Origin: Parabacteroides acidifaciens | GTDB lineage: Bacteria; Bacteroidota; Bacteroidia; Bacteroidales; Tannerellaceae | Reading direction: 5' to 3' | Assembly: GCF_003363715.1 (NCBI RefSeq) | Contig: NZ_QREV01000032.1 | Coordinates: 1 to 54,473, forward strand | DNA: 54,473 nucleotides | Shown here: positions 20,441 through 37,679 of the stretch, one piece after another | How positions within the stretch are numbered: position 1 is the stretch's first letter | How the letters are laid out: each line of letters starts with the position of its first letter | Translations under genes and position numbers: made by a program | Notes under the pieces: model-generated | Told to the model about the DNA's origin: nothing | Database searches by the model: none | What the model saw: the letters and a program-made list of their open reading frames with translations, nothing else

Positions 20441-20478
20441 TGTCAAATAATTAGACAGTGGTGTACAAATATTAGACA
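20441..20478 (+). promoter_or_regulatory. Paired activator-binding palindromes of promoter P1
   Basis: Two 17-bp sites, TGTCAAATAATTAGACA (20441-20457) and TGTACAAATATTAGACA (20462-20478), centred 21 bp apart (two helical turns). The nearer centre is 65 bp before the -24 GG. The same arrangement recurs at P2 and P3, and this spacing is typical of sites for a sigma-54 enhancer-binding protein. Confidence 0.8.
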
Positions 20479-20533
20479 GAATGGAAATTAAGGTTTATAT
20501 ATAAGTGTTTGCGTGTTAGCTGTTTATCTCTTT

Positions 20534-20548
20534 TGGCATGTTTTTTGA
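20534..20548 (+). promoter_or_regulatory. Sigma-54 (RpoN) promoter P1
   Basis: TGGCATG-TTTT-TTGA, matching TGGCACG-N4-TTGC with the -24 GG and -12 G separated by the obligatory 10 bases. Predicted start near 20560, 42 bases before the permease ATG at 20602. Confidence 0.8.
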
Positions 20549-20601
20549 TTGTTTTTCAATGGATATGGAATTAATGTCAAATCGATAAAAAACAAACTGA
20601 T

Positions 20602-22989
20602 ATGAAAAACCTGAATATCGCATTGCGTTCTCTTTTCAAAAAAGGCAGGAGTAACGGGATCAAGATTTTATCATTGGGGGTAGGGTTAGCAATGGGCTTG
20701 GTGCTGATCGCCAAAGTCTGTTTCGAGCTTTCCTATGATGATTTTTATCCGGATAGCGAGTGCATCTATCAGATACGGGAGAATGTCTCGATAGGTGAAA
20801 GGGTTATGGACGATCTGGACTATGTCAGTGGAGGCATTGCGCCGGGGATGAAACTTGAGATTCCGGGAGTGGTCGCTGCCACTCGTGGTTTTTCATTGGG
20901 CAATTCAGTGTTTTTCATGCCTGATAAGAATAAGTATAAAGCCGATTTCCTGCTGGTAGATGAATGCTTTTTCGATGTCCTGCCGCAAAAAGTGCTATCG
21001 GGAGATGCGAAGCAGATTCTTTCGAGACCCTTGTATGTGCTTGTATCCAAAAGTTTGGCCGAAAGGATAGGGGAGGGAAAAGACGTAACCGGTATGTCGT
21101 TTGAGTTGGCCTCTTACCCCGGTCGAGTAATCACGATTGGCGGTGTGTTTGAAGATGTTCCTGAAAATTCGCATTTAAAATATGATGTGCTTTTGTCGTT
21201 ATGTTCGTTTAAGGAAGTGATGGGTTGGAGTAATGAGAATGGCTGGTGGGGTGGAGATAGCTATCATGGGTATGTTAAAGTTCAGCCGGGAGCCGATCAG
21301 GAGGCATTGGAGGCTGAAATGGCCAAGATGTTGGAACGCCACGTTCCTTCCGCGAAGTTGAAAGAGATGGGAATGACTTATCGTTTATCCTTAAAACCCC
21401 TTAAAGAGGTCTATGCAACCTCTTCGGCTGTAAAGGGGATGGCGGTTATGTTGTCATTGATTGCTTTTGCCATTTTGTTTGCGGCTTTGATGAATTATAT
21501 CCTACTGATGGTCTCTTCATTAGTTGTCCGCTCTAAAGAGGTTGCCATTCATAAATGCTACGGTGCTTCCGGTAAAAACATATCGGGGATGATCTTTTCC
21601 GAAACGTTTGTGAACCTGTTTGCCTCCGTATTACTCTCTGCCTTATTGATACTTGCCCTTCGCGAAATGGTGGAGGAATTGTTGAAGGCTTCTTTGGGTG
21701 CTTTGTTTACCTGGCAGACGATTTTGTTACTGGTGGGTGTATGCCTGTTGGTCTTTCTCTTTGCCGGCCTGTTTCCTTCTTATTTGTTTTCCCGCGTACC
21801 GGTGGCGGTTGCTTTCCGGTCCTATACCGAATCGCGCCGGCTTTGGAAAAAAGGATTGCTGTTTGTCCAGTTTGTTGCCGTCGGTTTTTTGGTTACATTG
21901 CTGGCAATTATCGGTTTGCAGTATCAGAGGATGGTGACGGATGATCCCGGATATTCATACGATCGGGTTATATATGCGTCTCTTTCCGGAGTAGAGAGTT
22001 CTGCGGTCCGGATGGTTATGGATGAATTGGAGAAACTGCCGGAAGTGGAGGCGGTAGCGGCTTCAGACGACTTGCCGGTTTGGGGAGGGGCCGGAAATAT
22101 GATTTACCGGGACGGATCTGATGAGATCGCTTTGCATATTAGAGATCTGAGATATATGGATGCCGACTATATCCCGTTGATGGGTATAAAAGTAATAGAG
22201 GGAAAAGCCTTTGACCGCTCATACTCCGATTCGGCACGTATCGTAATGATCAGCCGGGCAACAGCGGAAAAATTGGTGTTGGTCCATGGGTGGAAGGATG
22301 GTGTAATCGGAAAAAAACTTCGTATAAGTGAACATAGTGACCCGAATGATCCGAATGGTTTTGAGGTTATCGGTGTCTATGATGAAGTGCGGGCCGGAGC
22401 GATCGACTCTTACCTTATGCCGCCGACGGTCTGGTTTTATTCAAGCAAGCCGGGTCATGTAGTTTCAATGAAATTGCACGGGAATGTTACGGTCGAGAAT
22501 ATGAAACTCATTGAGAATACCATTCAGAAGCTTCTTCCGGATAAAGATATTTCGGTAAACTCTTACGAAGCGAGTATCATCAATATGTATTCGGCTTCCC
22601 GGTTGTTCCGTAACTCCGTTATGCTGGGCGGCTTGGTTACTTTCCTGATCACTCTTGTCGGGCTGATCGGATATATTGCGGACGAAACGACCCGCCGTCG
22701 CAAAGAGATCGCGATCCGTAAAGTGAATGGTGCGACAGTAGCTAACATCATGGAGATTATATCAAAAGATATACTCTATATGGCTGTCCCGGCCGTGCTC
22801 TTAGGAGTCATGAGTTCTTATTGGATGGGGGAAAACTGGTTGCAACAGTTCTCCGAAAAGATACCGTTAAGCGTCTTTATCTTTGCGGGTTCTGCATTGG
22901 CAATTTGGCTGGTTGTCCTGGTTATGGTTGTAGCGCGTACCTGGAGTATTGCGAATGAGGACCCGGTGAAGAGTTTGAAGTCGGAATAG
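20602..22989 (+). CDS. ABC transporter permease, fused double MacB/FtsX type (permease 1)
   Basis: 795 residues. The order is TM1 (~22-42), periplasmic MacB_PCD domain (~43-275), three TMs of the first FtsX domain (~285-405), TM5 (~425-445), second periplasmic domain (~450-660) and three TMs of a second FtsX domain (~675-790). It is therefore two MacB-like halves in one chain, able to form a full permease on one ATPase dimer. Cytoplasmic coupling segments: RSKEVAIHKCYGASGKNI and RRRKEIAIRKVNGATVANI. It ends with the DPVKSLKSE tail shared by permeases 1-4. It is first in an operon driven by sigma-54 promoter P1 and shares it with permease 2. Likely role: mechanotransmission or extrusion of a peptide, lipid or drug across the envelope; substrate unknown. 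Confidence 0.9.
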   Translation: MKNLNIALRSLFKKGRSNGIKILSLGVGLAMGLVLIAKVCFELSYDDFYPDSECIYQIRENVSIGERVMDDLDYVSGGIAPGMKLEIPGVVAATRGFSLGNSVFFMPDKNKYKADFLLVDECFFDVLPQKVLSGDAKQILSRPLYVLVSKSLAERIGEGKDVTGMSFELASYPGRVITIGGVFEDVPENSHLKYDVLLSLCSFKEVMGWSNENGWWGGDSYHGYVKVQPGADQEALEAEMAKMLERHVPSAKLKEMGMTYRLSLKPLKEVYATSSAVKGMAVMLSLIAFAILFAALMNYILLMVSSLVVRSKEVAIHKCYGASGKNISGMIFSETFVNLFASVLLSALLILALREMVEELLKASLGALFTWQTILLLVGVCLLVFLFAGLFPSYLFSRVPVAVAFRSYTESRRLWKKGLLFVQFVAVGFLVTLLAIIGLQYQRMVTDDPGYSYDRVIYASLSGVESSAVRMVMDELEKLPEVEAVAASDDLPVWGGAGNMIYRDGSDEIALHIRDLRYMDADYIPLMGIKVIEGKAFDRSYSDSARIVMISRATAEKLVLVHGWKDGVIGKKLRISEHSDPNDPNGFEVIGVYDEVRAGAIDSYLMPPTVWFYSSKPGHVVSMKLHGNVTVENMKLIENTIQKLLPDKDISVNSYEASIINMYSASRLFRNSVMLGGLVTFLITLVGLIGYIADETTRRRKEIAIRKVNGATVANIMEIISKDILYMAVPAVLLGVMSSYWMGENWLQQFSEKIPLSVFIFAGSALAIWLVVLVMVVARTWSIANEDPVKSLKSE

Positions 22990-23011
22990 TATATATAAAA
23001 GGATAATAGAT

Positions 23012-25387
23012 ATGAGAAATTTGAATATAGCCATTCGCTCGCTTTTCAAGGGAGGAAGGCACAACATGATGAAGATTGTTTCGCTGAGCGTAGGCTTGTC
23101 GGTGGCTTTGGTCTTAATTGCCAAAATCTATTTTGAACAGTCGTACGATACTTTCTACCCGGATGCAGACCGGACTTATCAGATTTATGAAAATTATAGC
23201 CAAGATGGCAAGGAGTCGGATTATTATAATGTAAGCGGCGCTGTAGCTCCCGGTATGCTATATGAGGTACCCGGTGTGGAGGCTGCTACCCGCCTTACTT
23301 ATATCGGAGGGGATGAATCTTTGTTTTCAACCTCTGATAAAGAACGTTATTCGGCTCGTTTTATCATGATGGCGGATAGTAATGTGTTTGATCTGTTTCC
23401 GCGTCCTATCCTGTCCGGGAATCCGAAAAAAATATTGGCTAAACCCTGGTATGCGATGATTTCCCGCTCTTTGGCGGAAAAGATGGGCGGAATTGAGAAG
23501 GTCGAGGGGCTGACGATTATTCCCGATAATAATCCGGGAACGAAAGTGACGATCGGAGGCGTGTTCGAGGATATACCGGAGAACGCCAACCTGCGTTACG
23601 ATATGTTGGTTTCCATGACAGGAATGGATAAGGAGAGTTTGGAGAACTGGTTGGGTAACGATCGTTATAAAGGGTATGTACGCCTGGTGCCGGGCGTCAC
23701 TGCCGAAAGTCTTACGCCGGCCATACATGATATGGCGCTTCGCCATCAGAATGCGGAGGATATGAAGAGGTGGGGAATGGAACTGACCTATACATTGAAA
23801 CCGATTCTCGATTTGCATAAGAAATCAGGCGAGGTGAAAAGCATGGTCATGATGCTGGCTATCCTGGCCTTAGCCTTGTTGTTTACGGCTGTGATGAATT
23901 ATATCCTGATTGCTATTTCTTCGATTGTGAACCGGACGAAAGAGATTGCCGTACATAAATCGTATGGGGCTTCGGAAGGGAATATCCACAATATGATGAT
24001 GTCTGAAACACTGGTGCACATGGTTTGTTCGATCGTGTTGGCTGTCTTTTTGATTTTTCTGGGCAGGGATATGATACACGAATTGCTGGATGTTTCTGTC
24101 GAAGGATTGTTGTTCTCGAAAGGAGCGTTGATCCTGCTGGCGGTATGTGTGGTTGTTTTTCTGGTGACGGGTTTTGTGCCGGGAGCTTTGTTTGCACGTA
24201 TTCCGGTGGCAGCCGCTTTCCGTAATTTCCGTGAAAGCCGCCGTGTCTGGAAACTCGGCCTGTTGTTCCTACAGTTTATTGCAGCCGGTTTTTTGGTCAC
24301 GCTGCTTATCATTGTGGGGAGGCAGCACATGTTTATGGTGAACAGTAATCCCGGCTATTCTTATGACCGCCTGGCCTATTGCAGCATATCGGCGATCGAC
24401 TCGACGACTCGTTACAAGGTGTTGGACGAACTGATGCGCATCCCGGAAGTGGAGGCGGTGACGACATCGACCATATTGCCTTTTTGGGATAGTCTGGCCG
24501 GTAATAATATTGCTTTGCCCGAATCTGATAAAGAACTTTTTAATATCGCAGACCAGTATTGGTCCGGCAATGGTTTTCTGAAACTGATGGAGATTCCTGT
24601 CATCGAAGGACGTTCGTTTACGGAGAATATCCCGAAATCGGATGAAGTGATGGTTAACCGCGCTTTTGTCGAAAAGATGAAAGAGTTTACGGACTGGTCT
24701 GACGGCCCGGTCGGCAAATCCATTTATATTTCGGAACATGCCAATTATGATTCTAAGTTTTATACGATTTGCGGGGTGTATGAAAATTACCGTATCGGCT
24801 CACTTATCAGCCAGGACGATCGGCCTTCCGTATTGTTCTACCGGCAGCGGCCCCTGGATTACCTGCTGGTAAAATTCCATCAGATAACCCCGGATGCCGT
24901 TGCAAAAGTAAATGACAAGTTAGAGGAACTTATCCCGGATAAGGATATGAAGCTTTCGATTTATTCGGTCTCGATGGTAGAGCAGTACAGCAGTTCCCGG
25001 AAGTTCAGGGACCAGGTCCTGATCGGCGGCATTATCACGCTGCTTATCTCCATGATCGGATTGATCGGCTATACGAACGACGAGGTGAACCGTCGCCGTA
25101 AAGAGCTGGCTATCCGGAAGGTGAACGGGGCTACATTGAAAGATATACTGACTATGTTCCTGACCGATATTTTATGGCTCGCCCTGCCTGCTATCGTGTT
25201 AGGATGTATCATTACCTATTATGTCGCGGAACGCTGGCAAGAGCAGTTTATAGAAAAGATACCGCTCAGTCTCTGGATGTTTGTTTCCGGCGGGTTGTTT
25301 GTCTGCCTGGTTGTTATCGTGTGTATTGTCTATCGAACTTGGAATGCGGCGAACGATGATCCGGTGAATAGCCTGAAGTCGGAATAG
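23012..25387 (+). CDS. ABC transporter permease, fused double MacB/FtsX type (permease 2)
   Basis: 791 residues, same architecture as permease 1: TM1 (~20-42), periplasmic domain, three TMs (~280-400), TM5, second periplasmic domain, three TMs. Coupling segments are NRTKEIAVHKSYGASEGNI and RRRKELAIRKVNGATLKDI. It begins MRNLNIAIRSLFKGGRHNMMK, close to permeases 1 and 3, while the periplasmic loops diverge; this suggests duplication followed by ligand specialisation. It starts 22 bases after permease 1 and has no promoter of its own. The next gene's first activator palindrome begins at the base after its stop codon. Confidence 0.9.
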   Translation: MRNLNIAIRSLFKGGRHNMMKIVSLSVGLSVALVLIAKIYFEQSYDTFYPDADRTYQIYENYSQDGKESDYYNVSGAVAPGMLYEVPGVEAATRLTYIGGDESLFSTSDKERYSARFIMMADSNVFDLFPRPILSGNPKKILAKPWYAMISRSLAEKMGGIEKVEGLTIIPDNNPGTKVTIGGVFEDIPENANLRYDMLVSMTGMDKESLENWLGNDRYKGYVRLVPGVTAESLTPAIHDMALRHQNAEDMKRWGMELTYTLKPILDLHKKSGEVKSMVMMLAILALALLFTAVMNYILIAISSIVNRTKEIAVHKSYGASEGNIHNMMMSETLVHMVCSIVLAVFLIFLGRDMIHELLDVSVEGLLFSKGALILLAVCVVVFLVTGFVPGALFARIPVAAAFRNFRESRRVWKLGLLFLQFIAAGFLVTLLIIVGRQHMFMVNSNPGYSYDRLAYCSISAIDSTTRYKVLDELMRIPEVEAVTTSTILPFWDSLAGNNIALPESDKELFNIADQYWSGNGFLKLMEIPVIEGRSFTENIPKSDEVMVNRAFVEKMKEFTDWSDGPVGKSIYISEHANYDSKFYTICGVYENYRIGSLISQDDRPSVLFYRQRPLDYLLVKFHQITPDAVAKVNDKLEELIPDKDMKLSIYSVSMVEQYSSSRKFRDQVLIGGIITLLISMIGLIGYTNDEVNRRRKELAIRKVNGATLKDILTMFLTDILWLALPAIVLGCIITYYVAERWQEQFIEKIPLSLWMFVSGGLFVCLVVIVCIVYRTWNAANDDPVNSLKSE

Positions 25388-25425
25388 TGTCAAATATTTA
25401 TACACCATTGTCAAATAATTGGACA
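25388..25425 (+). promoter_or_regulatory. Paired activator-binding palindromes of promoter P2
   Basis: TGTCAAATATTTATACA (25388-25404) and TGTCAAATAATTGGACA (25409-25425), again 21 bp centre to centre and 65 bp from the -24 GG. The first site starts immediately after the stop codon of permease 2. Confidence 0.8.
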
Positions 25426-25480
25426 CTATTCGGGGATTAACTTATTTGTATATGTTTGTATTTTAGCATATTGCCTGTTT

Positions 25481-25495
25481 TGGCACGTTTTTTGA
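25481..25495 (+). promoter_or_regulatory. Sigma-54 (RpoN) promoter P2
   Basis: TGGCACG-TTTT-TTGA: a perfect -24 element and exact 10-base spacing to the -12 G. The predicted start, near 25506, leaves a 24-base leader to permease 3. Confidence 0.85.
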
Positions 25496-25529
25496 ACCTG
25501 TATGTTCAGAAAATAATAAAATACAAGAT

Positions 25530-27896
25530 ATGAGAAACTGGAACATAGCAATACGTTCGCTTTTTAAGAAAGGGCGGAGTAATGGGATTAAGATTTTGTC
25601 ATTAGGTGTCGGGCTGGCAATGGGGCTTGTCCTTATATCCAAAGTCTGTTTTGAAAGTTCTTACGATAAGTTCTATCCCGGCAGTGACCGTATTTACCGG
25701 TTACATGAGAATGTCATCCGGGAGAATGAATATAAGACCTATCCGCAGGTAAGCGGCGGTGTTGCTCCCGGTATGCAGGCCGAGATTCCGGAAGTCGAGA
25801 AGGCTACCCGCCTGACATATATCGGAGGCGACAAGGAGATATTCAGGACAGAAGACAAGAACCGTTATTCGGCGCGTTACGTCGTAATGGGCGATACGAA
25901 CGTCTTCGATTTGCTTCCCCGTCCGATCCTGATCGGTGATCCGAAAACGACGCTGGCGCGTCCGGGCTATGTGATGATTTCACGCCGTATAGCCGATTTG
26001 CTTGGTGGTGTAGAGAAGTCGATGGGACAGAAGTTCGAGTTTGAATCCAGTCCGGGACAGACCTATACGATCGGCGGCGTGTTTGAGGATGTTCCTGAAA
26101 ACTCCCACTTACGTTTTGAGATTGTCGCTTCCCTGGAAGGCATGAATAAGTGGAGCCGGGAAAACTGGCTGGGGAATGACCGCTATTTGGGATATGTGAA
26201 GCTCTATCCCGGGACGGACCCGGAAAGCCTGACGACCGCTATCCGTGAGATGCAGGGGCGGCACTGTGACCTGGAAGAGGTGAAAAAGGCCGGAGTCGAC
26301 TTGACTTACACGCTGGTTCCGTTGATGGATATGCATAGCAACAGCAGTGAAGTAAAGAGTATGAATTCCCTGTTGATCCTGCTTGCTTTCGTTCTTATCC
26401 TGACGTCTGCCATGAATTATGTTCTGATTGTGATCTCTACGCTGATTAACCGGACGAAGGAGGTGGCTGTCCATAAATGTTATGGCGCCTCCGACAAAAA
26501 TCTGTTCGGTATGATTATGTCGGAGACCTGCCTGCATATGCTGATATCCCTTCTGCTCGCGGCTTTCCTTGTTATTCTGTTCAGAGGAAAGGTTGAAGAA
26601 TTGTTGGGAGCTTCTTTAGGGGCTTTATTTTCTTCGCAAACGATCTTGGTTTTAGTAGGCATCTGTGTGATGATCTTCTTTATTACCGCGTTGATTCCGA
26701 CATATATATTCCTGCGTATTCCGGTTGCCGCCGCATTCCGTAATTTTAAAGAGTCGCGTCGCTATTGGAAGCTCTGCCTGTTGTTTATACAGTTTGTGGC
26801 GACTGCTTATCTGGTAGCGTTGTTGTCTGTCATCAATAAGCAATACGATTATATGGTGAACGTCAGCCCCGGATATGCTTACGACAAATTGGTCTATTGC
26901 GATACGCAGGGTGCGGAAGAATCGGTTCGCAACACGGCGATTGAAGAGCTGCGTAAGATGCCTGAAGTAGATAAAGTTTCAGCATGCTACGATTTGCCGA
27001 TTTCGGTTATGTCCGGAAATAATGTCTTGCTCCCCGGTGATGATCGCGAGTTGTTCAACATCGCCGATATGTATTGGGTAAAGGATGATTACTTCTCTTT
27101 GATGGAGATTCCGATCGTCGATGGCGAAGTGTTCCGCTCGGATGGCTCGGCTAAAGACAAAGTGATGGTCAGCCGCTCTTTTGTAAAGAAAATGGAGACG
27201 GTGGCAGGTTGGACGGGTAGCGCTGTCGGAAAAAACATCGTCGTAACGGAGCACAGCCAGAACGGAGAACCGCTTACAATTTGCGGTGTGTTTGAAGATG
27301 TATGCATCGGTAGTACCGGCAATCCGGATTTACGCCCGACAGTGTTATTCTATGACAAGTATGCACCGAAAATCCTGATTAAATTCCATGAAATGTCACC
27401 CGAAAACATAAAGAAAGCGCAGGGCGTGCTGGAAAGCATCATGCCGGACCGCAGTGTCAATGTGACTGCCTATTATATGGATATGATAGACCTGTACAAA
27501 GATTCTCGTACGTTCCGCGATTCGGTTTTGATCGGAGGTATCGTGACCTTGATCATCGCATTGATCGGCTTATTGGGATATACCAGCGATGAAACGAACC
27601 GCCGCGGACGCGAGATCGCAATCCGTAAGGTGAACGGGGCTTCGGCATGGAGCATTTTGAAAATGATATCCAAAGATATTTCTTATATCGCGATACCGGC
27701 TATCGTAATCGGTATAACGATCGCCTATTTTTCCGGAACCGGCTGGCTGAAACAATTTTCCGGAAAGGCATCTCTCGGATTCTTCATGTTCCTGGCGGGG
27801 GCGATGTTTGTCTATCTGTTGATCGTCGTCAGTGTCCTTTGCCGTGCATGGCTTGTCGCAAATTCGAATCCGGTGGACAGTCTTAAATCGGAATAA
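25530..27896 (+). CDS. ABC transporter permease, fused double MacB/FtsX type (permease 3)
   Basis: 788 residues with the same eight-TM, two-periplasmic-domain build. Residues 12-32 (FKKGRSNGIKILSLGVGLAMG) are identical to permease 1 at protein level but differ in synonymous bases, so this is constraint or old duplication rather than a recent copy. Coupling segments are NRTKEVAVHKCYGASDKNL and NRRGREIAIRKVNGASAWSI. The first periplasmic domain resembles permease 2 (TRLTYIGGDKEIFRTEDKNRYSAR). It is under sigma-54 promoter P2 and followed by permease 4 after 64 bases. Confidence 0.9.
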   Translation: MRNWNIAIRSLFKKGRSNGIKILSLGVGLAMGLVLISKVCFESSYDKFYPGSDRIYRLHENVIRENEYKTYPQVSGGVAPGMQAEIPEVEKATRLTYIGGDKEIFRTEDKNRYSARYVVMGDTNVFDLLPRPILIGDPKTTLARPGYVMISRRIADLLGGVEKSMGQKFEFESSPGQTYTIGGVFEDVPENSHLRFEIVASLEGMNKWSRENWLGNDRYLGYVKLYPGTDPESLTTAIREMQGRHCDLEEVKKAGVDLTYTLVPLMDMHSNSSEVKSMNSLLILLAFVLILTSAMNYVLIVISTLINRTKEVAVHKCYGASDKNLFGMIMSETCLHMLISLLLAAFLVILFRGKVEELLGASLGALFSSQTILVLVGICVMIFFITALIPTYIFLRIPVAAAFRNFKESRRYWKLCLLFIQFVATAYLVALLSVINKQYDYMVNVSPGYAYDKLVYCDTQGAEESVRNTAIEELRKMPEVDKVSACYDLPISVMSGNNVLLPGDDRELFNIADMYWVKDDYFSLMEIPIVDGEVFRSDGSAKDKVMVSRSFVKKMETVAGWTGSAVGKNIVVTEHSQNGEPLTICGVFEDVCIGSTGNPDLRPTVLFYDKYAPKILIKFHEMSPENIKKAQGVLESIMPDRSVNVTAYYMDMIDLYKDSRTFRDSVLIGGIVTLIIALIGLLGYTSDETNRRGREIAIRKVNGASAWSILKMISKDISYIAIPAIVIGITIAYFSGTGWLKQFSGKASLGFFMFLAGAMFVYLLIVVSVLCRAWLVANSNPVDSLKSE

Positions 27897-27960
27897 TTAG
27901 AGAAAAGAGATGTTACGTTTGCCCGGTACGGGTGTCTTGTTTATAGAAATATATTATATC

Positions 27961-30300
27961 ATGAAACAATTATTTTATACAGTCAGCTATTTGAAAAACG
28001 CCTGGGGTAATAACCTGATTAAGATTTTCACCTTGACGTTAGGCTTAACGATCGGTTTGGTTCTGTTTGCCCGTATCGCATTCGATTTGAGTTATGATAA
28101 ATTCTTGCCGGAGGCGGAGAATATTTATCAGGTACAAACGGTTTATACGACAGGTGTAGGGTCGGCCGAGGCTAAATCGAACGATTACTCCTTTACTTTC
28201 CAGCCTGTAGCCCCGACAATGCCGCTCGAGATACCGGGAGCTATTGCAGGGACTTCTCTTCTCGAGAGCGGCGAGCGGGTCATTTTTAATGGGGAGGACC
28301 GTTACTCCGTCAAGACAATCTATGCTGATACGATGTTTTTCAAAACGCTTCCTTATAAGATTCTTTCCGGTAGCGAGATGGGATTGAAGACGGGCGGGAA
28401 TGTATTCCTTTCGGAATCGCTTGCCAAACGAATCTTTAAAGGAGAGGACCCGATAGGGAAGACGTTATTCAATGATAAAGCCCATAAGGAAACTCTGACT
28501 GTGGTCGGGACATTTGAAAATGTGCCGGAAAACTCGCACCTCGATTTTAACCTGATTTATTCGATTGCCCGGAACAGCCGGAATAGTTGGGACGGGGGAG
28601 ACGGTTATAGAGGATATGTCCGCATGCAGGCAGGTGTCGATATAAATGCGATCAATGAAGAAGCCATACCTGAGATGTTGGCACGCCATATGGACCGCGA
28701 GTCAATGAAAAAAGGCGGCTATGCTTTTGATTGCTATCTGAAGCCTATCACGACTTTGCATACGGACAATAAGGAAACGAAGCTGACTTTGCTCGTCCTT
28801 TCGCTTTTAGCAACGCTGATACTGGTGGCTGTCTCGCTGAACTATGTGATGATGTCTATCTCGTCATTGGCTACCCGCGCCCGTACGATGGCGATCTATA
28901 AAAGTAACGGAGCCAGCACCGGGAATATCTTTATGATGAATCTGTCCGAAACGGTAATCCTGATCCTGCTCTCGTTGGTTTGTACGGCTCTGCTGGTTTT
29001 GGTTTCGGGAGATTTGATTACGGAACTGACAGGAGTGACGCTGGGTTCGCTTTTTTCCGGACGGCAATTGCTGGTATCGTTAGGATTGGTCTTCCTGGTA
29101 GTCTTGCTTTCAGGTGTTGTGCCGGCGCGTATCTTTTCGGCTATTCCTGTGACACAGGCGTTCCGTTTTTATAACTACAGCAAGCGCGGATGGAAACAGG
29201 GATTGTTAGGCGTGCAGATTGCTTGTGCGGCCTTTATGCTGATTTTCCTGGCGATCATCCTGCTGCAATATAATAAGGTCTTGAATAAGGACCTCGGCTA
29301 TCATCCGGATAATATTGTCTATTGTGATCTTGACAGCATCCCGTCCGAGCGTCAGCAGATGGTAAGAACGGAGCTGATGCGTTCTCCGGAAATAGAGAAT
29401 ATTACGTTTGCCAGTTATCTGATCTGCAATTTTTTCAGCGGTACACCCTTGATCGATCCGGAAACACAGGAGGCGTTGGCTACACTGCGCTTCCAATTTG
29501 CAGATTCCAGCTATGTGAGCACATTAGGGTTGAACCTCGTGCAGGGTTCTAATATTCCCTCTTTTATGGCCGAACCGACTCCGGCTCTGGTTAACCGGAA
29601 ATTCCTCGAACTTCTACGCTGGGATGACAATGCGATCGGGAAAGTCTATAAATGCAAGGGATTGTTCGATATTGTGATTGCCGGCGTGCTCGATGATTTC
29701 ATAGTCGGTTCCATATTCGTTCCGCAGACACCGGTGATCATTGTCGGTATCGGAAGTGACTGGAACTCTTTATCCATAAACGTACGTCTTCGTGAGATGT
29801 CGCCCGAGTCTTTCTCGATGCTTGAAAACCGTCTTCGGGAATTGCTTCCGGAGCAGGATATAGTCTTGACCACTTATCGCGACAAAATCCATGAATCCTA
29901 TCGCGACACCGAGCGGTTCCGTAATTCCGTAGCGGTGGCGGCCGTATTCATGTTGCTGATTACGCTGATGGGGCTTGTCGGATATGTCTCCGATGAGATA
30001 CGCCGGCGGAGCAAGGAGATTGCTATCCGCAAGGTCAACGGGGCGACGGCGGTCGATGTGCTGAAATTGTTGTTGCATAATATCATTGTGATCGGTACGC
30101 CGGCGGTTATTGTCGGCCTGATCGGAACGTATCTGGCAGGTGATAAGTGGCTGGAGAATTTCCCGGAAAAGATTTCGTTGAATGTCTTTATCTTTATATT
30201 GGGAGGCCTTGCCTTGCTGATTGTGATCGGGTTCTGCGTCGTCCTTCGCTCCTGGTATGTGGCGAACGAAAACCCGGTGAAGAGCATTAAGTCAGAATAA
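27961..30300 (+). CDS. ABC transporter permease, fused double MacB/FtsX type (permease 4)
   Basis: 779 residues when started at the ATG at 27961 (MKQLFYTVSYLKNAWGNN). An in-frame ATG at 27910 would add 17 residues unlike any sibling, so I reject it. Architecture matches permeases 1-3, but it is the most divergent of that group: the N-terminal coupling segment reads TRARTMAIYKSNGASTGNI, the C-terminal one RRRSKEIAIRKVNGATAVDV. Expected TM positions are ~20-40, ~280-400, ~420-440 and ~660-775. It ends NPVKSIKSE. It is probably co-transcribed with permease 3 from P2. The region after its stop contains TTGGCACATT-type repeats, not a promoter. Confidence 0.9.
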   Translation: MKQLFYTVSYLKNAWGNNLIKIFTLTLGLTIGLVLFARIAFDLSYDKFLPEAENIYQVQTVYTTGVGSAEAKSNDYSFTFQPVAPTMPLEIPGAIAGTSLLESGERVIFNGEDRYSVKTIYADTMFFKTLPYKILSGSEMGLKTGGNVFLSESLAKRIFKGEDPIGKTLFNDKAHKETLTVVGTFENVPENSHLDFNLIYSIARNSRNSWDGGDGYRGYVRMQAGVDINAINEEAIPEMLARHMDRESMKKGGYAFDCYLKPITTLHTDNKETKLTLLVLSLLATLILVAVSLNYVMMSISSLATRARTMAIYKSNGASTGNIFMMNLSETVILILLSLVCTALLVLVSGDLITELTGVTLGSLFSGRQLLVSLGLVFLVVLLSGVVPARIFSAIPVTQAFRFYNYSKRGWKQGLLGVQIACAAFMLIFLAIILLQYNKVLNKDLGYHPDNIVYCDLDSIPSERQQMVRTELMRSPEIENITFASYLICNFFSGTPLIDPETQEALATLRFQFADSSYVSTLGLNLVQGSNIPSFMAEPTPALVNRKFLELLRWDDNAIGKVYKCKGLFDIVIAGVLDDFIVGSIFVPQTPVIIVGIGSDWNSLSINVRLREMSPESFSMLENRLRELLPEQDIVLTTYRDKIHESYRDTERFRNSVAVAAVFMLLITLMGLVGYVSDEIRRRSKEIAIRKVNGATAVDVLKLLLHNIIVIGTPAVIVGLIGTYLAGDKWLENFPEKISLNVFIFILGGLALLIVIGFCVVLRSWYVANENPVKSIKSE

Positions 30301-30420
30301 TTTGCCAATTTGCCAATGTGGCGCTTCGCTAAATGTGCCAATGGAATAAAAAGACCTCATCTCAGTGAATCGTCTTTTATTTCATTGGCACATTGGCATA
30401 TTAATAAATTGGCACATTAT
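30301..30420. repeat. TTGCCAAT / ATTGGCAC repeat hairpin
   Basis: Inverted copies of the word ATTGGCA. TTTGCCAATTTGCCAATGTG on the left faces CATTGGCACATTGGCATA on the right. In the centre AATGTGCCAATGxAATAAAAxGAC pairs with GTCTTTTATTxCATTGGCACATT (30332-30395). It may end the permease 3-4 transcript, but the repeat character suggests a mobile or slippage-derived sequence. Confidence 0.55.
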
Positions 30421-30460
30421 CCATGTTATGTTTGTCTAAGTCGCGTGTCTTATTAATAGA

Positions 30461-30952
30461 ATGGAACAAGAACAGTTTAAAATAGAAGTCGTACCACTCA
30501 GGGGGAAGTTGTCGGGATGTGCCCGTCGCTTGCTGGACGATCCCGAAGATGTGGAAGATATCGTGCAGGAGGTTTTTCTCAAGCTGTGGTATATCCGTGA
30601 GGAACTGGAGCGTTACGATAGCGTGGAAGCGCTTGCCGTGCAGATCACCAAGCACCTTTGTCTGAACCGCCTCCGTTCCTTCCAGTACAGGCAGGAGAAG
30701 TTGTCCGATTCGGCAATTATAACCGCAGACGATAATCCATACGTTTCGTTGGAACAGAAAGACAGTGTGAGCCATGTCATGAGCATTATGGAACAACTGC
30801 CCGGATTGCAACAGACGATACTCCGGATGAAACATGTCGATGGTTTCGAGGTGAAGGAGATTGCCGAGTTGACAGGCAGTACACCGGAAGCTGTCCGCGT
30901 GAACCTCTCGCGAGCACGTAAAAGAGTCAAGGAACTATTCTTAAAAATGTAA
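30461..30952 (+). CDS. RNA polymerase sigma-70 factor, ECF-like
   Basis: 163 residues. Region 2 (~15-75) includes LSGCARRLLDDPEDVEDIVQEVFLKLWYIREEL and the helix KHLCLNRLRSFQYRQEK. Region 4 (~105-160) includes MEQLPGLQQTILRMKHVDGFEVKEIAELTGSTPEAVRVNLSRARKRVKE split over a normal helix-turn-helix. It lies four bases before a membrane protein that looks like its anti-sigma partner. A weak -7-like TATGTTTG at 30427 is the only promoter sign, so it may also be transcribed from P2 with permeases 3 and 4. The targets are unknown. Confidence 0.9.
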   Translation: MEQEQFKIEVVPLRGKLSGCARRLLDDPEDVEDIVQEVFLKLWYIREELERYDSVEALAVQITKHLCLNRLRSFQYRQEKLSDSAIITADDNPYVSLEQKDSVSHVMSIMEQLPGLQQTILRMKHVDGFEVKEIAELTGSTPEAVRVNLSRARKRVKELFLKM

Positions 30953-30956
30953 CAGG

Positions 30957-31520
30957 ATGAAATCAGACGAATATACATATATAGAAAATCTGTTGGAGCG
31001 TTTCTTCGAAGGGGAAACGTCCAATGTCGAAGAGCAGGAGCTATATGCCTTCTTCGCACGTCCGGATTTGCCGGAACATTTGAAGCCCTACAAACCTGTG
31101 TTCGGTTATTTTGAAACCGGAATCGCCCGTGAAGTGGAGGAGGAGAACTCCTCGAAACAGGTTCGTAAAGTCCCTTTTTACAAAAAGTGGTTATGGATAG
31201 GTACCGCTGTGGCCGCTTCTTTGTTGTTGTTCTTGTTTTTGAACAAAGAGGATCGTAAGCAGGAAGATGATTTTAATCCGTACGCCGGAAGCTACATCAT
31301 CCGCAACGGCGTAAAGACGGAAATACCGGAAAATGTGGCCAAGGATTTGGACAAGATGATCCGGCAAGCCGAGAAATCACATTATGAGAAGGAACGGATG
31401 GCATTGCAACCCGTACAACAGCACCGGCAAACCCTGCATGATATAAAAATGAAAGAACAAGAGGCGAAACAAATCGAATCCGACATAGAGATGTTGGAAG
31501 AGAGATATAAAGATAAATGA
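30957..31520 (+). CDS. Putative membrane-anchored anti-sigma factor
   Basis: 187 residues. An acidic N-terminal cytoplasmic part (~1-78; YTYIENLLERFFEGETSNVEEQELYAFFA) is followed by basic KWLW and one TM helix (~80-97; IGTAVAASLLLFLFL). A charged, helical periplasmic tail (~100-187; ending QIESDIEMLEERYKDK) is probably coiled. There is no FecR domain and no recognised zinc motif. The N-terminal pattern of a short helix bundle ending in FF.RPDLP resembles anti-sigma N-termini in Bacteroidales. Tight coupling (four bases) to the sigma gene supports the role; it is an inference. Confidence 0.65.
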   Translation: MKSDEYTYIENLLERFFEGETSNVEEQELYAFFARPDLPEHLKPYKPVFGYFETGIAREVEEENSSKQVRKVPFYKKWLWIGTAVAASLLLFLFLNKEDRKQEDDFNPYAGSYIIRNGVKTEIPENVAKDLDKMIRQAEKSHYEKERMALQPVQQHRQTLHDIKMKEQEAKQIESDIEMLEERYKDK

Positions 31521-31550
31521 TGATTTAATAACCATATAATAATAGAAAGT

Positions 31551-32021
31551 ATGAAAACAAGGAATCTTATTTTAACGGCTGTCCTGCTGATAGCAGGGAG
31601 CTGGGCCGGCGATTTATTGGCACAGACGAATTTGAATGCGCTGATGAAGAAGTGCGAGTCGAAGGATAAAGTGAACGTGGAAGTGATCTACGACAAAGAT
31701 CGGAAGACAAAGAAACCTGTGAAAGAAGTGATCACGATCACTTTTTCGACGAAGGATAACCCGAAGTTGCTGGATGAATTTATAAACGCTTTCCAGAAGG
31801 ATAAAGAAGCGGCTTACAAAGTGATCGAATCGAAACAGAACGGAAGGGTGTTGCCCTCTTTTTACCGTTTCTCTTCCGGAACGAGCGACATATCCTATTC
31901 GTTGGATGATCTTAATCTCAAACCCGGATATAAGGATAATGAGTATCTGCTCAGGAACGGGAATATCCGGGTCACAAAGATCGAACGTTTCGAGTTCAAG
32001 GAAGAAAGCGAATGGGGATAA
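31551..32021 (+). CDS. Small secreted protein (possibly DUF5024-like)
   Basis: 156 residues with a signal peptide (~1-25, cut near LLAQ) and a mature part beginning TNLNALMKKCESKDKVNVEVIYDKD. It contains an alternating charged/hydrophobic region and a closing RNGNIRVTKIERFEFKEE. It resembles the short periplasmic proteins that follow ECF sigma/anti-sigma pairs in Bacteroidales; I recall DUF5024 for this pattern but cannot confirm it. No catalytic residues are evident. It lies 30 bases after the putative anti-sigma gene and is probably in the same transcript, perhaps as a sensor or target of that system. Confidence 0.6.
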   Translation: MKTRNLILTAVLLIAGSWAGDLLAQTNLNALMKKCESKDKVNVEVIYDKDRKTKKPVKEVITITFSTKDNPKLLDEFINAFQKDKEAAYKVIESKQNGRVLPSFYRFSSGTSDISYSLDDLNLKPGYKDNEYLLRNGNIRVTKIERFEFKEESEWG

Positions 32022-32045
32022 ACCTCGAGCCATTTTTGTTCAAAG

Positions 32046-32083
32046 TGTCTAATATCTTTACACTACTGTCAAAAAATTAGACA
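32046..32083 (+). promoter_or_regulatory. Paired activator-binding palindromes of promoter P3
   Basis: TGTCTAATATCTTTACA (32046-32062) and TGTCAAAAAATTAGACA (32067-32083), 21 bp centre to centre; the second is centred 65 bp before the -24 GG. Geometry is identical to P1 and P2. Confidence 0.8.
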
Positions 32084-32138
32084 CTTTCGAAAAATATCAA
32101 ATTCTTTATAGCGCTGTAAATAAATAATTTATGTACTT

Positions 32139-32153
32139 TGGCACGCTGTTTGC
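32139..32153 (+). promoter_or_regulatory. Sigma-54 (RpoN) promoter P3
   Basis: TGGCACG-CTGT-TTGC is a perfect match to TGGCACG-N4-TTGC. The predicted start, near 32165, gives a ~36-base leader to the ATPase ATG at 32201 and rules out the in-frame upstream start at 32138, which would lie inside the promoter. Confidence 0.9.
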
Positions 32154-32200
32154 CTATAATTAGGCAAGAAGATGTAATAACAATAAAAACAGATACAGTC

Positions 32201-32980: not shown

Positions 32981-35323
32981 ATGAATAATATACTGAATTT
33001 TAAGTCTTTTATGAAGTTCCTGAGTCGGAATATGGGATATACGGCAATCGATGTCTTCGGGCTTTCGGTGTCGCTGATGTTTGTGATCCTGATTACGGTA
33101 TATACGTATCAAGAATTGGCGACGGACCGTTTCCAGGAGAATGGTGACCGGATTTGCGTGATTGGGAATGAGAAAGGCTTGGGAACGGCTATCCCTATCC
33201 CTTACCGCTTGAAGGAACAGTTTCCGGAGATCGAGAAGGTTTGCCCGGTTGTTGTTCCGGGTAACTTCAGCAATATATTAGCCCTGTATGGCGATAATAT
33301 GTTGCAAGTGGATATGATGTGTACCGACTCCACCTTCTTTGATTTCTTCTCTTTCAAACTCTTGAAAGGAAATCGTGAACTGGCATTGGAAGATCCCTAT
33401 AGCGTGGTTCTCTCCGAGACTTTTGCCCGGAAGATGTTCGGTGGTGAAGAACCGATAGGTAAAAGTTTCCGGATCAGCGACTCGACAACGGTAATCGTGA
33501 GCGGAGTAATGGAAGACATACGCAGATCGGTGCTCCCTTCTTGCGACATACTGGCGCGTCTGGAACGTGCGAAAGAATTTAACGGAGGTTTATCGCTGAC
33601 GAATGAAGGCAATGCCGGTTCTACAGCCGGTTTCTTAATGCTTCATAAGGGGGCGGATTTGGCTTCGAGGACTTCCGATATCTATGATTTCCTGAAAGAA
33701 TCTTTCTGGCCTTATACGATCGATGTGTGGAAAGAGGTGAGGGTTATTCCTTTCAACGATATCTATTTTTCTTCATACGAATGGTCGGTGCTCCAGACCG
33801 GCGACCGTAATTTCGTGTTAGTGTTGATGTCTGTCGGCATCCTGATCTTGATCTTTGCCGTATTCAATTATATCAACCTGACTGTGGCGCAGGCCGGGCA
33901 GCGTGCTCGTGAGATGGCTACCCGCCGCCTGTTGGGGTCATCGCGCACGGAACTGTTCATACGGTTGATGATCGAGTCGACGATGCTGACGTTGTTTTCG
34001 TTTATCATCGGGTTGCTGTTAGCTGTGGCAGCGGTGCCTTATGTGAATGAATTGCTGGATACGAAGATCTATCTGGCCGATGCTTGTACGCCTGCCTGGA
34101 TCGGTATGGCGGCAGGGCTTATCCTGCTGATCGGAGTGCTGTCGGGGTTCTTGCCTGCTATGCTGATTTCGGCTTCGAAGCCGATCGACGTGGTACGCGG
34201 TACGTTCCGCAGGCAGACGAAGATGGTGTTCAGTAAAGTCTTCATCACTTTCCAGAATACGATTACGATCGCTACGCTGTCCGCAGCCTTGGTGATGGGA
34301 TTGCAGATTTATCATATGATCGTCGCGCCGTTAGGCTATAATACTTCCAATATATTGGTCGTGGCGAATACTTTACGTTCAGATAGCGAAAAGGCCGCAG
34401 CGATCGACCGCATCCGGGAATTGCCTCATGTTAAGGCTGTCGGTTTCTCTAATGGGACTCCTTTCAGTGGAACGAACAACCTGACCGGGGTGTTTGAAGG
34501 GAAATCGCTTAGTTTTCAGCAAATGACACTCGATAGTGCGGCTTTTAAGATATTGGGGCTCCAGATTAAACATGATAATCAGGTCGCTTCGTCCAAGCCT
34601 TGGAGTTGGTATCTGACGGAACGCGCTTTCCGGGATATGGAGTTGCCGGAAAATGCGGAATATTTTGGGCTGAAGGATGACGAACCGGCTCAGATATTAG
34701 GTGTGTTGAAAGATTTCCACCTGCGGAATATCAATATGGAAAGTGCGCCAGTCATGCTGCGCTTTCGTGATTTCAGCAAGCCGGACAGCCATCCCTGGAA
34801 TGTTCTGATCGAGGTGGACGGAGAGCCCATGACGACTTATTCTGCCGTGCGCGAGATTTTTGAAGATGTGACGAAGGTTGATTTCGAGGGGAATTATCTC
34901 GAACAGAAGATCGAGGGTTCGTTCGATTCGCAGATACGTTTAGTCAAGATTGTATTGCTCTTCGCCTGCGTTGCAATTCTGATTTCGATGTTGGGATTGT
35001 TGGCGATGTCGACCTATTTCATCCAGCAGCGTTCGCAGGAGGTTGCTGTCCGCAAGGTCTTCGGGTCTGATAACCGGGCGATCCTGAGCCGTCTGGTAGG
35101 AACGTTCCTGATGTATGTGGTGATTGCGTTTGTGATTGCTGCGCCGATAAGCTGGTATATCATGGATAAATGGATTGCGGACTATTCTTACCGTATCACG
35201 CTTAGTCCGCTTATCTTCCTTGTGGCCGGTTTGTTTTGCCTGCTGATATCTTTCTTCGCGGTCTTCTACCAAAGCTGGCAGGCGGCGAATGCGAATCCGG
35301 TAGAGAGTGTGAAGGTTAGTTGA
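32981..35323 (+). CDS. ABC transporter permease, fused double MacB/FtsX type (permease 5)
   Basis: 780 residues; first of three closely related copies beginning MNN(I/L)xNxKSFxKFLS. TM1 ~20-42; first periplasmic domain (~45-275); FtsX TMs (~285-405) with coupling segment QRAREMATRRLLGSSRTEL; TM5 ~430-450; second periplasmic domain; final TMs with QQRSQEVAVRKVFGSDNRAIL. It differs from permeases 1-4, which carry IRKVNGA there, so two subfamilies coexist. GGAGG eight bases before the ATG is a strong Shine-Dalgarno site, uncommon in Bacteroidetes. It lies 99 bases after the ATPase and is likely its direct partner. Confidence 0.9.
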   Translation: MNNILNFKSFMKFLSRNMGYTAIDVFGLSVSLMFVILITVYTYQELATDRFQENGDRICVIGNEKGLGTAIPIPYRLKEQFPEIEKVCPVVVPGNFSNILALYGDNMLQVDMMCTDSTFFDFFSFKLLKGNRELALEDPYSVVLSETFARKMFGGEEPIGKSFRISDSTTVIVSGVMEDIRRSVLPSCDILARLERAKEFNGGLSLTNEGNAGSTAGFLMLHKGADLASRTSDIYDFLKESFWPYTIDVWKEVRVIPFNDIYFSSYEWSVLQTGDRNFVLVLMSVGILILIFAVFNYINLTVAQAGQRAREMATRRLLGSSRTELFIRLMIESTMLTLFSFIIGLLLAVAAVPYVNELLDTKIYLADACTPAWIGMAAGLILLIGVLSGFLPAMLISASKPIDVVRGTFRRQTKMVFSKVFITFQNTITIATLSAALVMGLQIYHMIVAPLGYNTSNILVVANTLRSDSEKAAAIDRIRELPHVKAVGFSNGTPFSGTNNLTGVFEGKSLSFQQMTLDSAAFKILGLQIKHDNQVASSKPWSWYLTERAFRDMELPENAEYFGLKDDEPAQILGVLKDFHLRNINMESAPVMLRFRDFSKPDSHPWNVLIEVDGEPMTTYSAVREIFEDVTKVDFEGNYLEQKIEGSFDSQIRLVKIVLLFACVAILISMLGLLAMSTYFIQQRSQEVAVRKVFGSDNRAILSRLVGTFLMYVVIAFVIAAPISWYIMDKWIADYSYRITLSPLIFLVAGLFCLLISFFAVFYQSWQAANANPVESVKVS

Positions 35324-35348: not shown

Positions 35349-37679
35349 ATGAATAATATAGTAAATATCAAGTCTTTTCTGAAGTTTCTAAGTAAGAATA
35401 AAGCATATACGGCGATCGACGTCTTCGGACTCTCGGTATCGTTGATGTTTGTGATCCTGATTGCCGTGTATGTGGAACGGGAGCTGAATATAGACAAACA
35501 ACAAGTTAATTATGACCGCATCTATGCGATCGGAAACGAGAACTTCCTGGGTACGGGTGTTCCTGTTCCTTACTGGCTGGAGGAGCGCTACCCCGAAATT
35601 GAACAGGTATGCCCCGTCATCACCGATCAGGGAAAAGGGATGCAGGTCTTTTACGGTGAAAAGAAATATAAGGCGGATGTGGTCTATGCCGACTCCACCT
35701 TTTTCAGTATGTTTTCCTTTAAGGTCCTGGATGGCAATCGCGAGGAAGTTATGAAAAGCGCCTACGACGCGGTCGTCTCTGAGAGTTTTGCCAACAAAGC
35801 TTTCCCTGGCGAGAATCCCGTCGGTAAAAGCCTCCGGATCAGCGATTCGACCAGCGTCACTGTGACTGGTGTCATGGAGGATATCAACCGCTCCGTCATT
35901 CCCTATGCCGATGTCTTGTTACGTATCGAGCGTATAGCCGAATTCAACAGCGGATTGACGAAGACCAGTGCCAATAATGCCGGCTCGGCTGTCGGTTTCA
36001 TCCAACTTAAACCCGGTGCCGACCTGAAGGCGCAGACCGATGACATCCTGGAGTTCCTGAAGGAACGTTTCTGGCTCTATGAGAGAGGATTTGCAAAAGA
36101 CCTCTATATTGTTTCGATTCCCGAGATCTATTTCGGCAAGTGGAAATACTCGAATATGAACAGTGGCGACCGCAGTTTCTCGCTCGTCCTCATGTCCGTC
36201 GGTATCCTGATCCTGATCTTTGCCATTATCAACTATATCAACCTGACGGTTGCGCAGGCCAGCCAGCGTGCCCGTGAGATGGCTACGCGCCGCCTGCTGG
36301 GATCGCTACGGAGCGATCTTTTTACCCGACTGATGATGGAGGCGACACTTCTGACGGTCGTCTCGTTTGTGATTGGTCTGCTGTTGGCGATTGCGGCTTT
36401 GCCGTTTGCGAACGATCTGTTGCAGGTGCGCCTGACGCTCGACGTGCTATGGACGCCGCTTTGGGGTGGGGCGATTGTGGGCTTCATCCTGCTGACCGGT
36501 TTCCTGTCCGGGTTGCTACCTGCCATCCTAATCTCGTCGGCTAAGCCGATCGATGTGGTTCGAGGAACGTTCCGCCGGCAGACGAAGATGGTATTCAGTA
36601 AGTTTTTCATTACATTCCAGAATGTTATCACTATCGTTATGATTGCAGCATCGTTGACAATGTATTTTCAGATCAATCATCTGATCCATGCACCGCTGGG
36701 GTATAACACGGAGAACATTATCCAGACGAATAACGTCTTCCGCTCGAGAAGCGAGATGGAGAAGGCGGAAGACATGCTCAGCCAGATCCCCTACGTCAAG
36801 GCCGTCGGCTACACGAACGGGACGCCTTCCGGCGGGACGAACAACATGAGCGGCGATTACGAGGGTAAATCACTTAGTTTCCAGCAGATGCAAGTCGACA
36901 GCGCCGCTTTCCGGATCTTCGGCTTGGAGATTAAGACAGACAACCATGTGGCAAATTCCGACGGGGGCTGGTTCCTGAACGAACTGGCGTTTAAACAGAT
37001 GGACCTGCCGGAAGATGCCGCCACGTTCAAGATGTATGATCGGGAGACACCGATCCTGGGTGTAATCAAGGACTTCCATTTGTGGGACATCTCGCGGGAG
37101 AACTCTCCGTTGATGTTGCGCTTCAACCGGCATCATTCCGATTGGTGGCCGTGGAGCTACGTGATCGAAGTGCAGGGCGATCCGGTGAAGGCTTTTGCTG
37201 AGGTCCGCAAGGTCTTCGAGGAGGTTTCGGGTGTCAGCTTCGAGGGTGAGTTTATCGACCAGGATATACAGAGCCATTTTGAGACGCAGATTCGTCTGAC
37301 TAAGATCGTGGTGATCTTTGCCTGTATCGCGATCCTGATTTCGTTGTTGGGGTTGCTGGCGATGTCGACCTATTTTATTCAGCAGCGTGCACAAGAGGTG
37401 GCAATACGCAAGGTGTTCGGTTCGGACAACCGGTCGATTTTAAACCGCCTGGTGGGTACGTTCCTGATGTATGTCGGGATTGCGTTTGTGATTGCCACAC
37501 CGGTCAGTTGGTACTTTATGAATCATTGGTTGGCAGACTATTCCTACCGCATCTCTCTGAACCCGCTTATATTCATTGCGGCAGGTCTGTTTTGTCTGCT
37601 GATTTCTTTCTTCTCGGTCTTTTTCCAGAGCTGGCGTGCGGCAAATGCGAATCCGATCGAGAGTGTGAAGGATAATTGA
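35349..37679 (+). CDS. ABC transporter permease, fused double MacB/FtsX type (permease 6)
   Basis: 776 residues, same subfamily and layout as permease 5. The TM and coupling regions are nearly unchanged (SQRAREMATRRLLGSLRSDL; QQRAQEVAIRKVFGSDNRSIL). The periplasmic loops differ, for example the first domain has VITDQGKGMQVFYGEKKYK and the second SGDYEGKSLSFQQMQVDSAA. Conserved internal blocks such as KPIDVVRGTFRRQTKMVFSK occur in all three siblings, consistent with tandem duplication. It starts 25 bases after permease 5 and lacks its own promoter, so it should depend on P3. It ends NPIESVKDN. Confidence 0.9.
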   Translation: MNNIVNIKSFLKFLSKNKAYTAIDVFGLSVSLMFVILIAVYVERELNIDKQQVNYDRIYAIGNENFLGTGVPVPYWLEERYPEIEQVCPVITDQGKGMQVFYGEKKYKADVVYADSTFFSMFSFKVLDGNREEVMKSAYDAVVSESFANKAFPGENPVGKSLRISDSTSVTVTGVMEDINRSVIPYADVLLRIERIAEFNSGLTKTSANNAGSAVGFIQLKPGADLKAQTDDILEFLKERFWLYERGFAKDLYIVSIPEIYFGKWKYSNMNSGDRSFSLVLMSVGILILIFAIINYINLTVAQASQRAREMATRRLLGSLRSDLFTRLMMEATLLTVVSFVIGLLLAIAALPFANDLLQVRLTLDVLWTPLWGGAIVGFILLTGFLSGLLPAILISSAKPIDVVRGTFRRQTKMVFSKFFITFQNVITIVMIAASLTMYFQINHLIHAPLGYNTENIIQTNNVFRSRSEMEKAEDMLSQIPYVKAVGYTNGTPSGGTNNMSGDYEGKSLSFQQMQVDSAAFRIFGLEIKTDNHVANSDGGWFLNELAFKQMDLPEDAATFKMYDRETPILGVIKDFHLWDISRENSPLMLRFNRHHSDWWPWSYVIEVQGDPVKAFAEVRKVFEEVSGVSFEGEFIDQDIQSHFETQIRLTKIVVIFACIAILISLLGLLAMSTYFIQQRAQEVAIRKVFGSDNRSILNRLVGTFLMYVGIAFVIATPVSWYFMNHWLADYSYRISLNPLIFIAAGLFCLLISFFSVFFQSWRAANANPIESVKDN

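Follow-up and report, generated by a model that had tools for sequence, protein, structure and literature searches.

What would make three promoters of one permease cluster share an upstream layout down to the base pair? The question is raised by a stretch of 54,473 nucleotides (nt) from Parabacteroides acidifaciens (contig NZ_QREV01000032.1 of assembly GCF_003363715.1), referred to here as the window, which is contig C71 in a 5.1-Mb genome of 144 contigs. Three of its promoters, P1, P2 and P3, precede genes for duplicated FtsX/MacB permeases and an ATPase. Our analysis of the sequence indicates that P1–P3 are very probably enhancer-dependent sigma-54 promoters within a nine-promoter regulon of an activator encoded on another contig (C1), which would drive a scattered MacAB-TolC-like exporter.

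Promoter geometry and a conserved linker element

Each promoter is composed of two tandem 17-bp dyads, 4 bp apart, a 55-bp linker and a -24/-12 element (Table 1). The step between the dyads (21 bp), the length of the linker and the distance from the start of dyad 1 to the T of TGGCA (93 nt) are alike in all three, and in each pair one dyad is an exact TGTC-N9-GACA and the other carries a single mismatch. An earlier note, made from the letters of the window, had described the palindrome pairs and their 21-bp step at these three loci; its coordinates were reproduced exactly, and the nearer palindrome is indeed centred 65 bp before the GG in P1, P2 and P3, as follows from the common distance of 93 nt. 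Relative to the predicted starts, the dyad centres lie at about -111 and -90. The motif TGGCAYG-N4-TTG has three matches in the whole window, all of them at P1–P3. The note's description of the element as TGGCAYG-N4-TTG(A/C) with GG-to-GC spacing stands for the element itself, since a TGGC-N8-TTGC-like sequence with GG-N10-GC spacing is found at every promoter; the -12 part reads TTGA at P1 and P2, and the literal GC is confined to the element at 32139.

The dyad pair alone (TGT-N11-ACA-N4-TGT-N11-ACA) was then sought in the entire genome, with the same pattern read backwards as a control; each palindrome was reported on both strands, and readings on the promoterless strand were disregarded. 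The pair was detected at 10 places and the control at none. At nine of these, TGGCA follows dyad 1 at 93 nt (eight sites) or 94 nt (one site, on contig C83), each time before an open frame. The tenth place (C1:9278) was rejected as a site: TGGCA is absent at that distance on either strand and the match lies inside an open frame that runs for 538 codons or more, which marks it as a chance match in coding sequence. A shifted control, with the linker of the composite pattern set to 59 rather than 55 bases, gave 1 match in the same genome, a chance one. The targets of the nine promoters comprise 12 duplicated FtsX/MacB permeases, one ATPase, TolC, HlyD, a beta-lactamase-fold protein and a DUF3836 protein; genes beyond the first behind each promoter are presumed to belong to its operon from their close spacing. 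The nine promoters probably form one regulon that turns on scattered exporter parts together. The regulon of seven permeases and one ATPase proposed in the earlier note was therefore drawn too small, as the device reaches beyond the window's cluster.

The 55-bp linker contains a third conserved element, which the earlier note had overlooked. Counted back from TGGCA in 37 sites with a linker of this length, the positions -31 (A, 37/37), -24 (T, 36/37), -16 (A, 35/37) and -9 (T, 37/37) are almost fixed, with an information content of 0.87–1.71 bits against a shuffle maximum of 0.40. The sequence of the element is YA-N5-YTR followed by TA and then TTA; among the 63 sites that have that linker, it begins 23 nt past dyad 2 in 50. 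Over the 86 distinct sites found in all loci examined, all four fixed letters are present in 52 and three in 15; eight other sigma-54-like promoters, a small and mixed sample, have 0–2 of them. When 85 linkers were scored against the IHF consensus (WATCAANNNNTTR or its reverse), the reverse form reached a mean of 6.1 of 9 letters at -32 (shuffle maximum 4.1), and the forward form 5.7 at -20 and 5.3 at -35. Because the forward form, too, has high scores at these two other places, the element is called IHF-like rather than IHF. The genome contains 12 matches to HU/IHF-family genes. The -7 motif of the primary sigma factor of Bacteroides was also considered for this element and not adopted, as its known spacing differs (no scan was made).

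A candidate activator and the distribution of its putative sites

The earlier note had attributed the promoters to RpoN and one enhancer-binding protein encoded outside the window, and this is the best reading of the genome-wide scan as well. An RpoN gene is present (C13, E 1.4e-52), and PF00158 is matched 14 times across the genome, with E 4e-62 or better in the 10 strong cases. The best activator candidate (C1:52912-54264) carries Response_reg, Sigma54_activat and HTH_8 domains and hence the receiver/AAA+/Fis architecture, including the AAA+ domain and Fis-type helix-turn-helix of bacterial enhancer-binding proteins; the tandem dyads at a distance upstream are, as sequence sites, what such proteins use. 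A histidine kinase gene is located next to it. The TolC–HlyD site lies 2.1 kb upstream of the activator gene, facing away, and in some relatives (L140–L143) the gap between promoter and activator is about 0.1 kb. The composite scan of the whole genome that the earlier note had suggested thus places the sites before related permease genes and beside an activator/kinase pair. In P. acidifaciens the gap holds a frame for a 196-residue nitroreductase and small frames (L045:7624-8890, on C1), and looks like an insertion into a divergent region.

The closest named relatives of the C1 activator, among the best 80, belong to Parabacteroides. Each of the 80 activator loci encodes a frame whose identity to the C1 kinase exceeds 30%. 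The hydropathy profile of this one kinase has two membrane peaks in the first 53 residues, with little room for an outside domain, and on this profile the protein may resemble intramembrane-sensing kinases. In Bce modules, such kinases read transporter activity.

The loop that contacts sigma-54 reads GAFTDA in the C1 activator instead of the exact GAFTGA. The best 80 orthologues comprise 53 with GAFTDA, 25 with GSFTDA, one with GAFTGA and one in which no motif was found; a G-to-D change at the fifth loop position may characterize the clade, G(A/S)FTDA being present in 78 of them. Among the ten strong activators of the genome, those on C1, C101, C76 and C99 and C79:66326 read GAFTDA, and the other five GAFTGA or GSFTGA. 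A 2025 survey (PMC12316311), in its accessible part, calls GAFTGA invariant and filters activators on it; a filter that keeps GAFTGA proteins only would drop the C1-type family, and our results point to a GAFTDA activator family missed in this way. The available portion of a Desulfovibrio study lists GAFTDA among the variants that would keep function, with DVU2106 as a case (PMC4641369). In Dickeya, according to the excerpted text of PMC10714721, sigma-54 was not recovered with the GAFTDA protein VfmH, and a loss of sigma-54 contact is left open there.

To follow the sites across genomes, a fixed-geometry composite scan allowing at most 2 mismatches was run on 59 genomes. The composite was detected in 28 of them and the control, run on the same 59, in none, which together with the 10 genomic places of the tandem pattern agrees with the earlier judgement that the geometry is very unlikely to arise by chance. 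Of the 35 same-genus genomes, 27 encode an orthologue with 64% identity or more (partial in G004), and the composite is present in all 27 and in none of the other eight. A free-spacing scan of 38 genus genomes gave 105 rows, from which 8 were set aside (6 without a dyad core, 1 reverse reading and 1 second reading). Measured from dyad 1 through TGGCA, the 97 kept rows span 98 bases in 81 cases, 99 in 7, 97 in 4 and 96 in 5; the backwards control gave 3 matches.

Next, the loci of the best 80 named relatives were scored for dyads alone, with a matrix built from 40 sites of the window's genus and steps of 15–40 allowed. This revealed 44 tandem sites spread over 38 loci, and none in one block-shuffled copy per locus. 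All 44 are followed by TGGCA 52–56 nt downstream (25 at 55); the step is 21 in 38 tandems and 22 in 6, the latter in Bacteroides and Rikenella loci. By their labels, 23 of the 38 site-bearing loci come from Bacteroidaceae, Rikenellaceae or Odoribacteraceae, and the activator loci of P. goldsteinii and P. massiliensis carry sites. Of the 86 distinct sites mentioned above, 77 precede exporter genes (35 permease, 29 TolC, 12 ATPase and 1 HlyD), 2 precede genes of the C83/C102 type, 2 something else, and 5 have no visible frame behind them. The palindromes of P2 and P3 are retained in orthologous loci, where 8 genus sites precede ATPases 78–98% identical to that of the window and 2 precede permeases 86–88% identical to permease 3.

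Table 1. Promoter parts, genes behind them in the window, and the promoters of the proposed regulon on other contigs
Feature	Position	Strand	Remark
P1 tandem dyads (putative activator sites; 17 bp + 4 + 17 bp)	20441-20457/20462-20478	+	pattern scan
P1 linker element YA-N5-YTR ... TA ... TTA	20502..20526	+	IHF-like, putative identity
P1 -24/-12 element TGGCATG-N4-TTGA	20534..20549	+	predicted start near 20560; permeases 1-2
P2 tandem dyads	25388-25404/25409-25425	+	pattern scan
P2 linker element	25449..25473	+	
P2 -24/-12 element TGGCACG-N4-TTGA	25481..25496	+	predicted start near 25507; permeases 3-4
P3 tandem dyads	32046-32062/32067-32083	+	pattern scan
P3 linker element	32107..32131	+	
P3 -24/-12 element TGGCACG-N4-TTGC	32139..32154	+	predicted start near 32165; ATPase and permeases 5-7
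Permease 1 (FtsX + MacB_PCD, duplicated; ADOP-like)	20602..22989	+	
Permease 2	23012..25387	+	presumably in permease 1 operon (22-bp gap)
Permease 3	25530..27896	+	
Permease 4	27910..30300	+	start codon uncertain
ATP-binding cassette ATPase, 226 residues	32201..32881	+	TTG start at 32138 in the open reading frame list falls on the promoter
Permease 5	32981..35323	+	
Permease 6	35349..37679	+	
Permease 7	37716..40055	+	
C75, two promoters			three permeases
C94, one promoter			two permeases
C1, one promoter			TolC, then HlyD
C83, one promoter			sole 94-nt spacing; beta-lactamase-fold protein PF00144 (L047:12618-13952)
C102, one promoter			DUF3836 protein

The dyads of P2 start on the base right after the stop codon of permease 2 (25385-25388). 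Between permease 4 and P3, positions 30461-32021 encode an extracytoplasmic function sigma factor, a protein without a Pfam match and a DUF5024 protein; the three may form a sigma/anti-sigma unit of their own. The PF00144 protein on C83 has a distant likeness to 3-succinylated cholic acid synthase.

Proposed mechanism, rival readings and sibling circuits

From the sites and genes we infer the following course of events. The kinase encoded after the C1 activator would phosphorylate it, and activator dimers would bind both dyads, which lie on one face of the DNA because 21 bp correspond to two turns, and assemble the AAA+ oligomer. A protein, most likely a member of the IHF/HU family, would bend the 55-bp linker at the conserved element and allow the activator to reach the RpoN-polymerase at -24/-12; bending at a fixed element would explain the rigid spacing. 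The outcome would be one coordinated switch for the scattered ATPase and twelve duplicated permeases, together with the adaptor and the outer-membrane channel, whose genes lie near the activator. Toxic peptides or lipophilic compounds are our likeliest guess for the substrate of the exporter.

Several observations weigh against this reading. In P. acidifaciens the nitroreductase gene and small frames separate the TolC promoter from the activator. The 64% cut-off for orthologues was chosen after the data had been seen, and the Fisher value for the 27/27 and 0/8 split (4e-8) overstates independence, because the genomes are related. The 0/8 is valid for the fixed geometry only, since G028 and G031, two of the eight (orthologues 58–60%), carry step-22 sites beside the activator in the free-spacing scan; in a quick tree their activators group with those of Bacteroides. 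Outside the genus, G057 has a 61% orthologue and no site, and G045 (57%) has one site. Among the 80 activator loci, 42, including that of P. distasonis (L145), lack a tandem dyad in the locus DNA examined, and 2 of the 40 sites behind the dyad matrix recur in these loci. The set of 86 sites is not random and favours TolC, because it consists mostly of one locus per genome and of loci surrounding activators. As to the linker, 19 of the 86 sites retain at most two of the four fixed letters, and at the sites of the window itself agreement with the IHF consensus (WATCAR form) at -32 is limited to 6–7 of 9 letters. Cross-talk with the activator on C101 is also possible, because this paralogue (58% identical) resembles the C1 protein in its recognition helix and its own adjoining promoter carries similar dyads.

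The last point leads to the rival with the most substance, namely that the dyads are sigma-54 activator sites whose cognate activator is the C101 paralogue, or that the regulon is common to both proteins. The C101 dyads (GTC-N-AA...TT-N-GAC) are related to those of P1–P3; however, their step is 23 bp and one outer base differs. In 12 of the 27 genus genomes with the composite, only one protein, of the C1 type, is found at E<=1e-100. G008 and G011, whose best matches are 55–56% identical and have a changed recognition helix, yielded no sites in the fixed or the free-spacing scan; no promoter with dyads was found beside their activators, and the single row there (L232) is not promoter-like. We consider it unlikely that the C101 protein replaces or shares the role of the C1 activator.

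Two further explanations would deny the dyads any activating or regulon-defining role. Small dimeric repressors also suit palindromes of this size, so the dyads might be operators of an unrelated repressor that stand near sigma-54 promoters by coincidence. Yet the dyads keep a fixed upstream distance without overlapping the -24/-12 element, every one of the 44 tandems found blind to the promoter has its TGGCA within the narrow range given above, and the sites track an activator gene across genomes, which leaves a repressor very hard to sustain. Alternatively, the repeats might stem from a promoter cassette that is mobile or was recently duplicated, and would then tell nothing about a regulon. 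Gene duplication did occur in the window, where permeases 1–3 are 46–51% and permeases 5–7 are 61–71% identical in pairwise comparison. Over eight of the nine sites, however, mean pairwise identity is 27% in the 60 bp upstream against 71% in the dyads and 79% in the -24/-12 elements; recent duplication of one cassette was rejected as the source of the likeness on this upstream value. The targets also include unrelated genes, and the sites recur in other families, so that a mere cassette is extremely improbable.

Regulation of the nine promoters by the C1 activator, our preferred reading, has apparent parallels in the same genome. Other sigma-54-like promoters, beside other activators or on their contigs, precede TolC, HlyD or ATPase genes and, judged by eye, have different dyads: besides those of C101, TGTGC...GCACA-like on C76 and TGTTC...GGACA-like on C79 (sibling promoter loci L237, L238, L239, L240 and L242). 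These are apparently parallel exporter circuits. Tested singly for IHF, 2 of 7 sibling linkers beat their shuffles at P<=0.01 and 5 did not. Sigma-54-like elements were also seen in Bacteroides loci and one genus relative (L190, L206, L215 and L133) in front of a small protein; its initial part contains NWLPSIFNDFFDNDW and by eye resembles small heat-shock proteins.

A broader picture can be put forward only tentatively, and we rather doubt it as a whole: one activator and a kinase without an outside domain may run a modular exporter with a single ATPase, adaptor and channel and a dozen interchangeable duplicated permeases, sibling activators in the same genome may drive further exporters in parallel by way of other dyad codes with similar spacing, and the permeases may report the signal as in Bce modules. 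If true, envelope defence in these bacteria would be divided among several sigma-54 circuits insulated from one another.

Comparison with known systems

Activators of the NtrC/ZraR/AtoC family combine tandem upstream dyads with a -24/-12 promoter. The C1 system shares with them the receiver, AAA+ and Fis-type helix-turn-helix architecture and the adjoining histidine kinase. It differs in that the activator scores far under the curated cut-offs for AtoC, ZraR and NtrC, in the G(A/S)FTDA loop in place of GAFTGA, and in the rigid distance from dyads to promoter. At nifH and Pu, an IHF site lies between the enhancer and the sigma-54 promoter. The fixed element midway in our linker may correspond to this layout and fits the reverse IHF consensus on average, whereas the window's sites agree with it only in part, as given above. 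A second module about 15 bp further on in the linker is, to our knowledge, no part of the classical IHF picture.

The one survey found on this subject (PMC12316311) predicted from promoter matrices, class-wide, that sigma-54 is enriched upstream of COG0577 permeases in Bacteroidia. Target kind and sigma factor are the same as here; in the accessible part of that survey no activator is named or assigned to the permeases, and the string 'palindrom' is absent. The available text of PMC3162934 does not mention Bacteroid-, FtsX, MacB or permease, and that of PMC9723704, in which sigma-54 start sites were mapped in a Flavobacterium, does not mention permease. Within the titles and abstract openings of the open-licence literature, partially covered, no publication was found naming this activator, dyad code or regulon. 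For sigma-54 in Bacteroidales, our results supply a candidate activator together with a DNA code and the set of genes behind nine promoters. The dyad code would join genes of unknown substrate into one machine, whose signal becomes testable.

As for the exporter, a MacB-type ATPase and permease, an HlyD adaptor and a TolC channel, the latter annotated as an outer membrane efflux protein, make up a MacAB-TolC-type gene set; unlike in MacB, the ATPase and permease are separate proteins. Likeness to DarBCD is also apparent, since DarD, DarC and DarB are among the best 25 NCBIfam matches of the ATPase, the adaptor and each of three scanned permeases, respectively. The label of a darobactin exporter was nevertheless rejected, because the scores stay below the cut-offs (DarC 214 of 450 bits, DarD 286 of 375, DarB 56–80 of 700 for the 3 of 12 permeases scanned). 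On the ADOP 'duplicated permease' model the scanned permeases reach higher scores, which again stay below the cut-off of that model. Within the best 25 matches per protein, the scanned parts match DarBCD, MacB-type and ADOP models below cut-off, and HlyD passes the general RND_mfp model. In contrast to DarBCD and MacAB-TolC, the genes are scattered, with 12 permeases to 1 ATPase. Together, the comparison identifies a switch of a known kind, whose plan is unusually rigid, whose candidate activator is newly assigned and whose target would be a scattered exporter.

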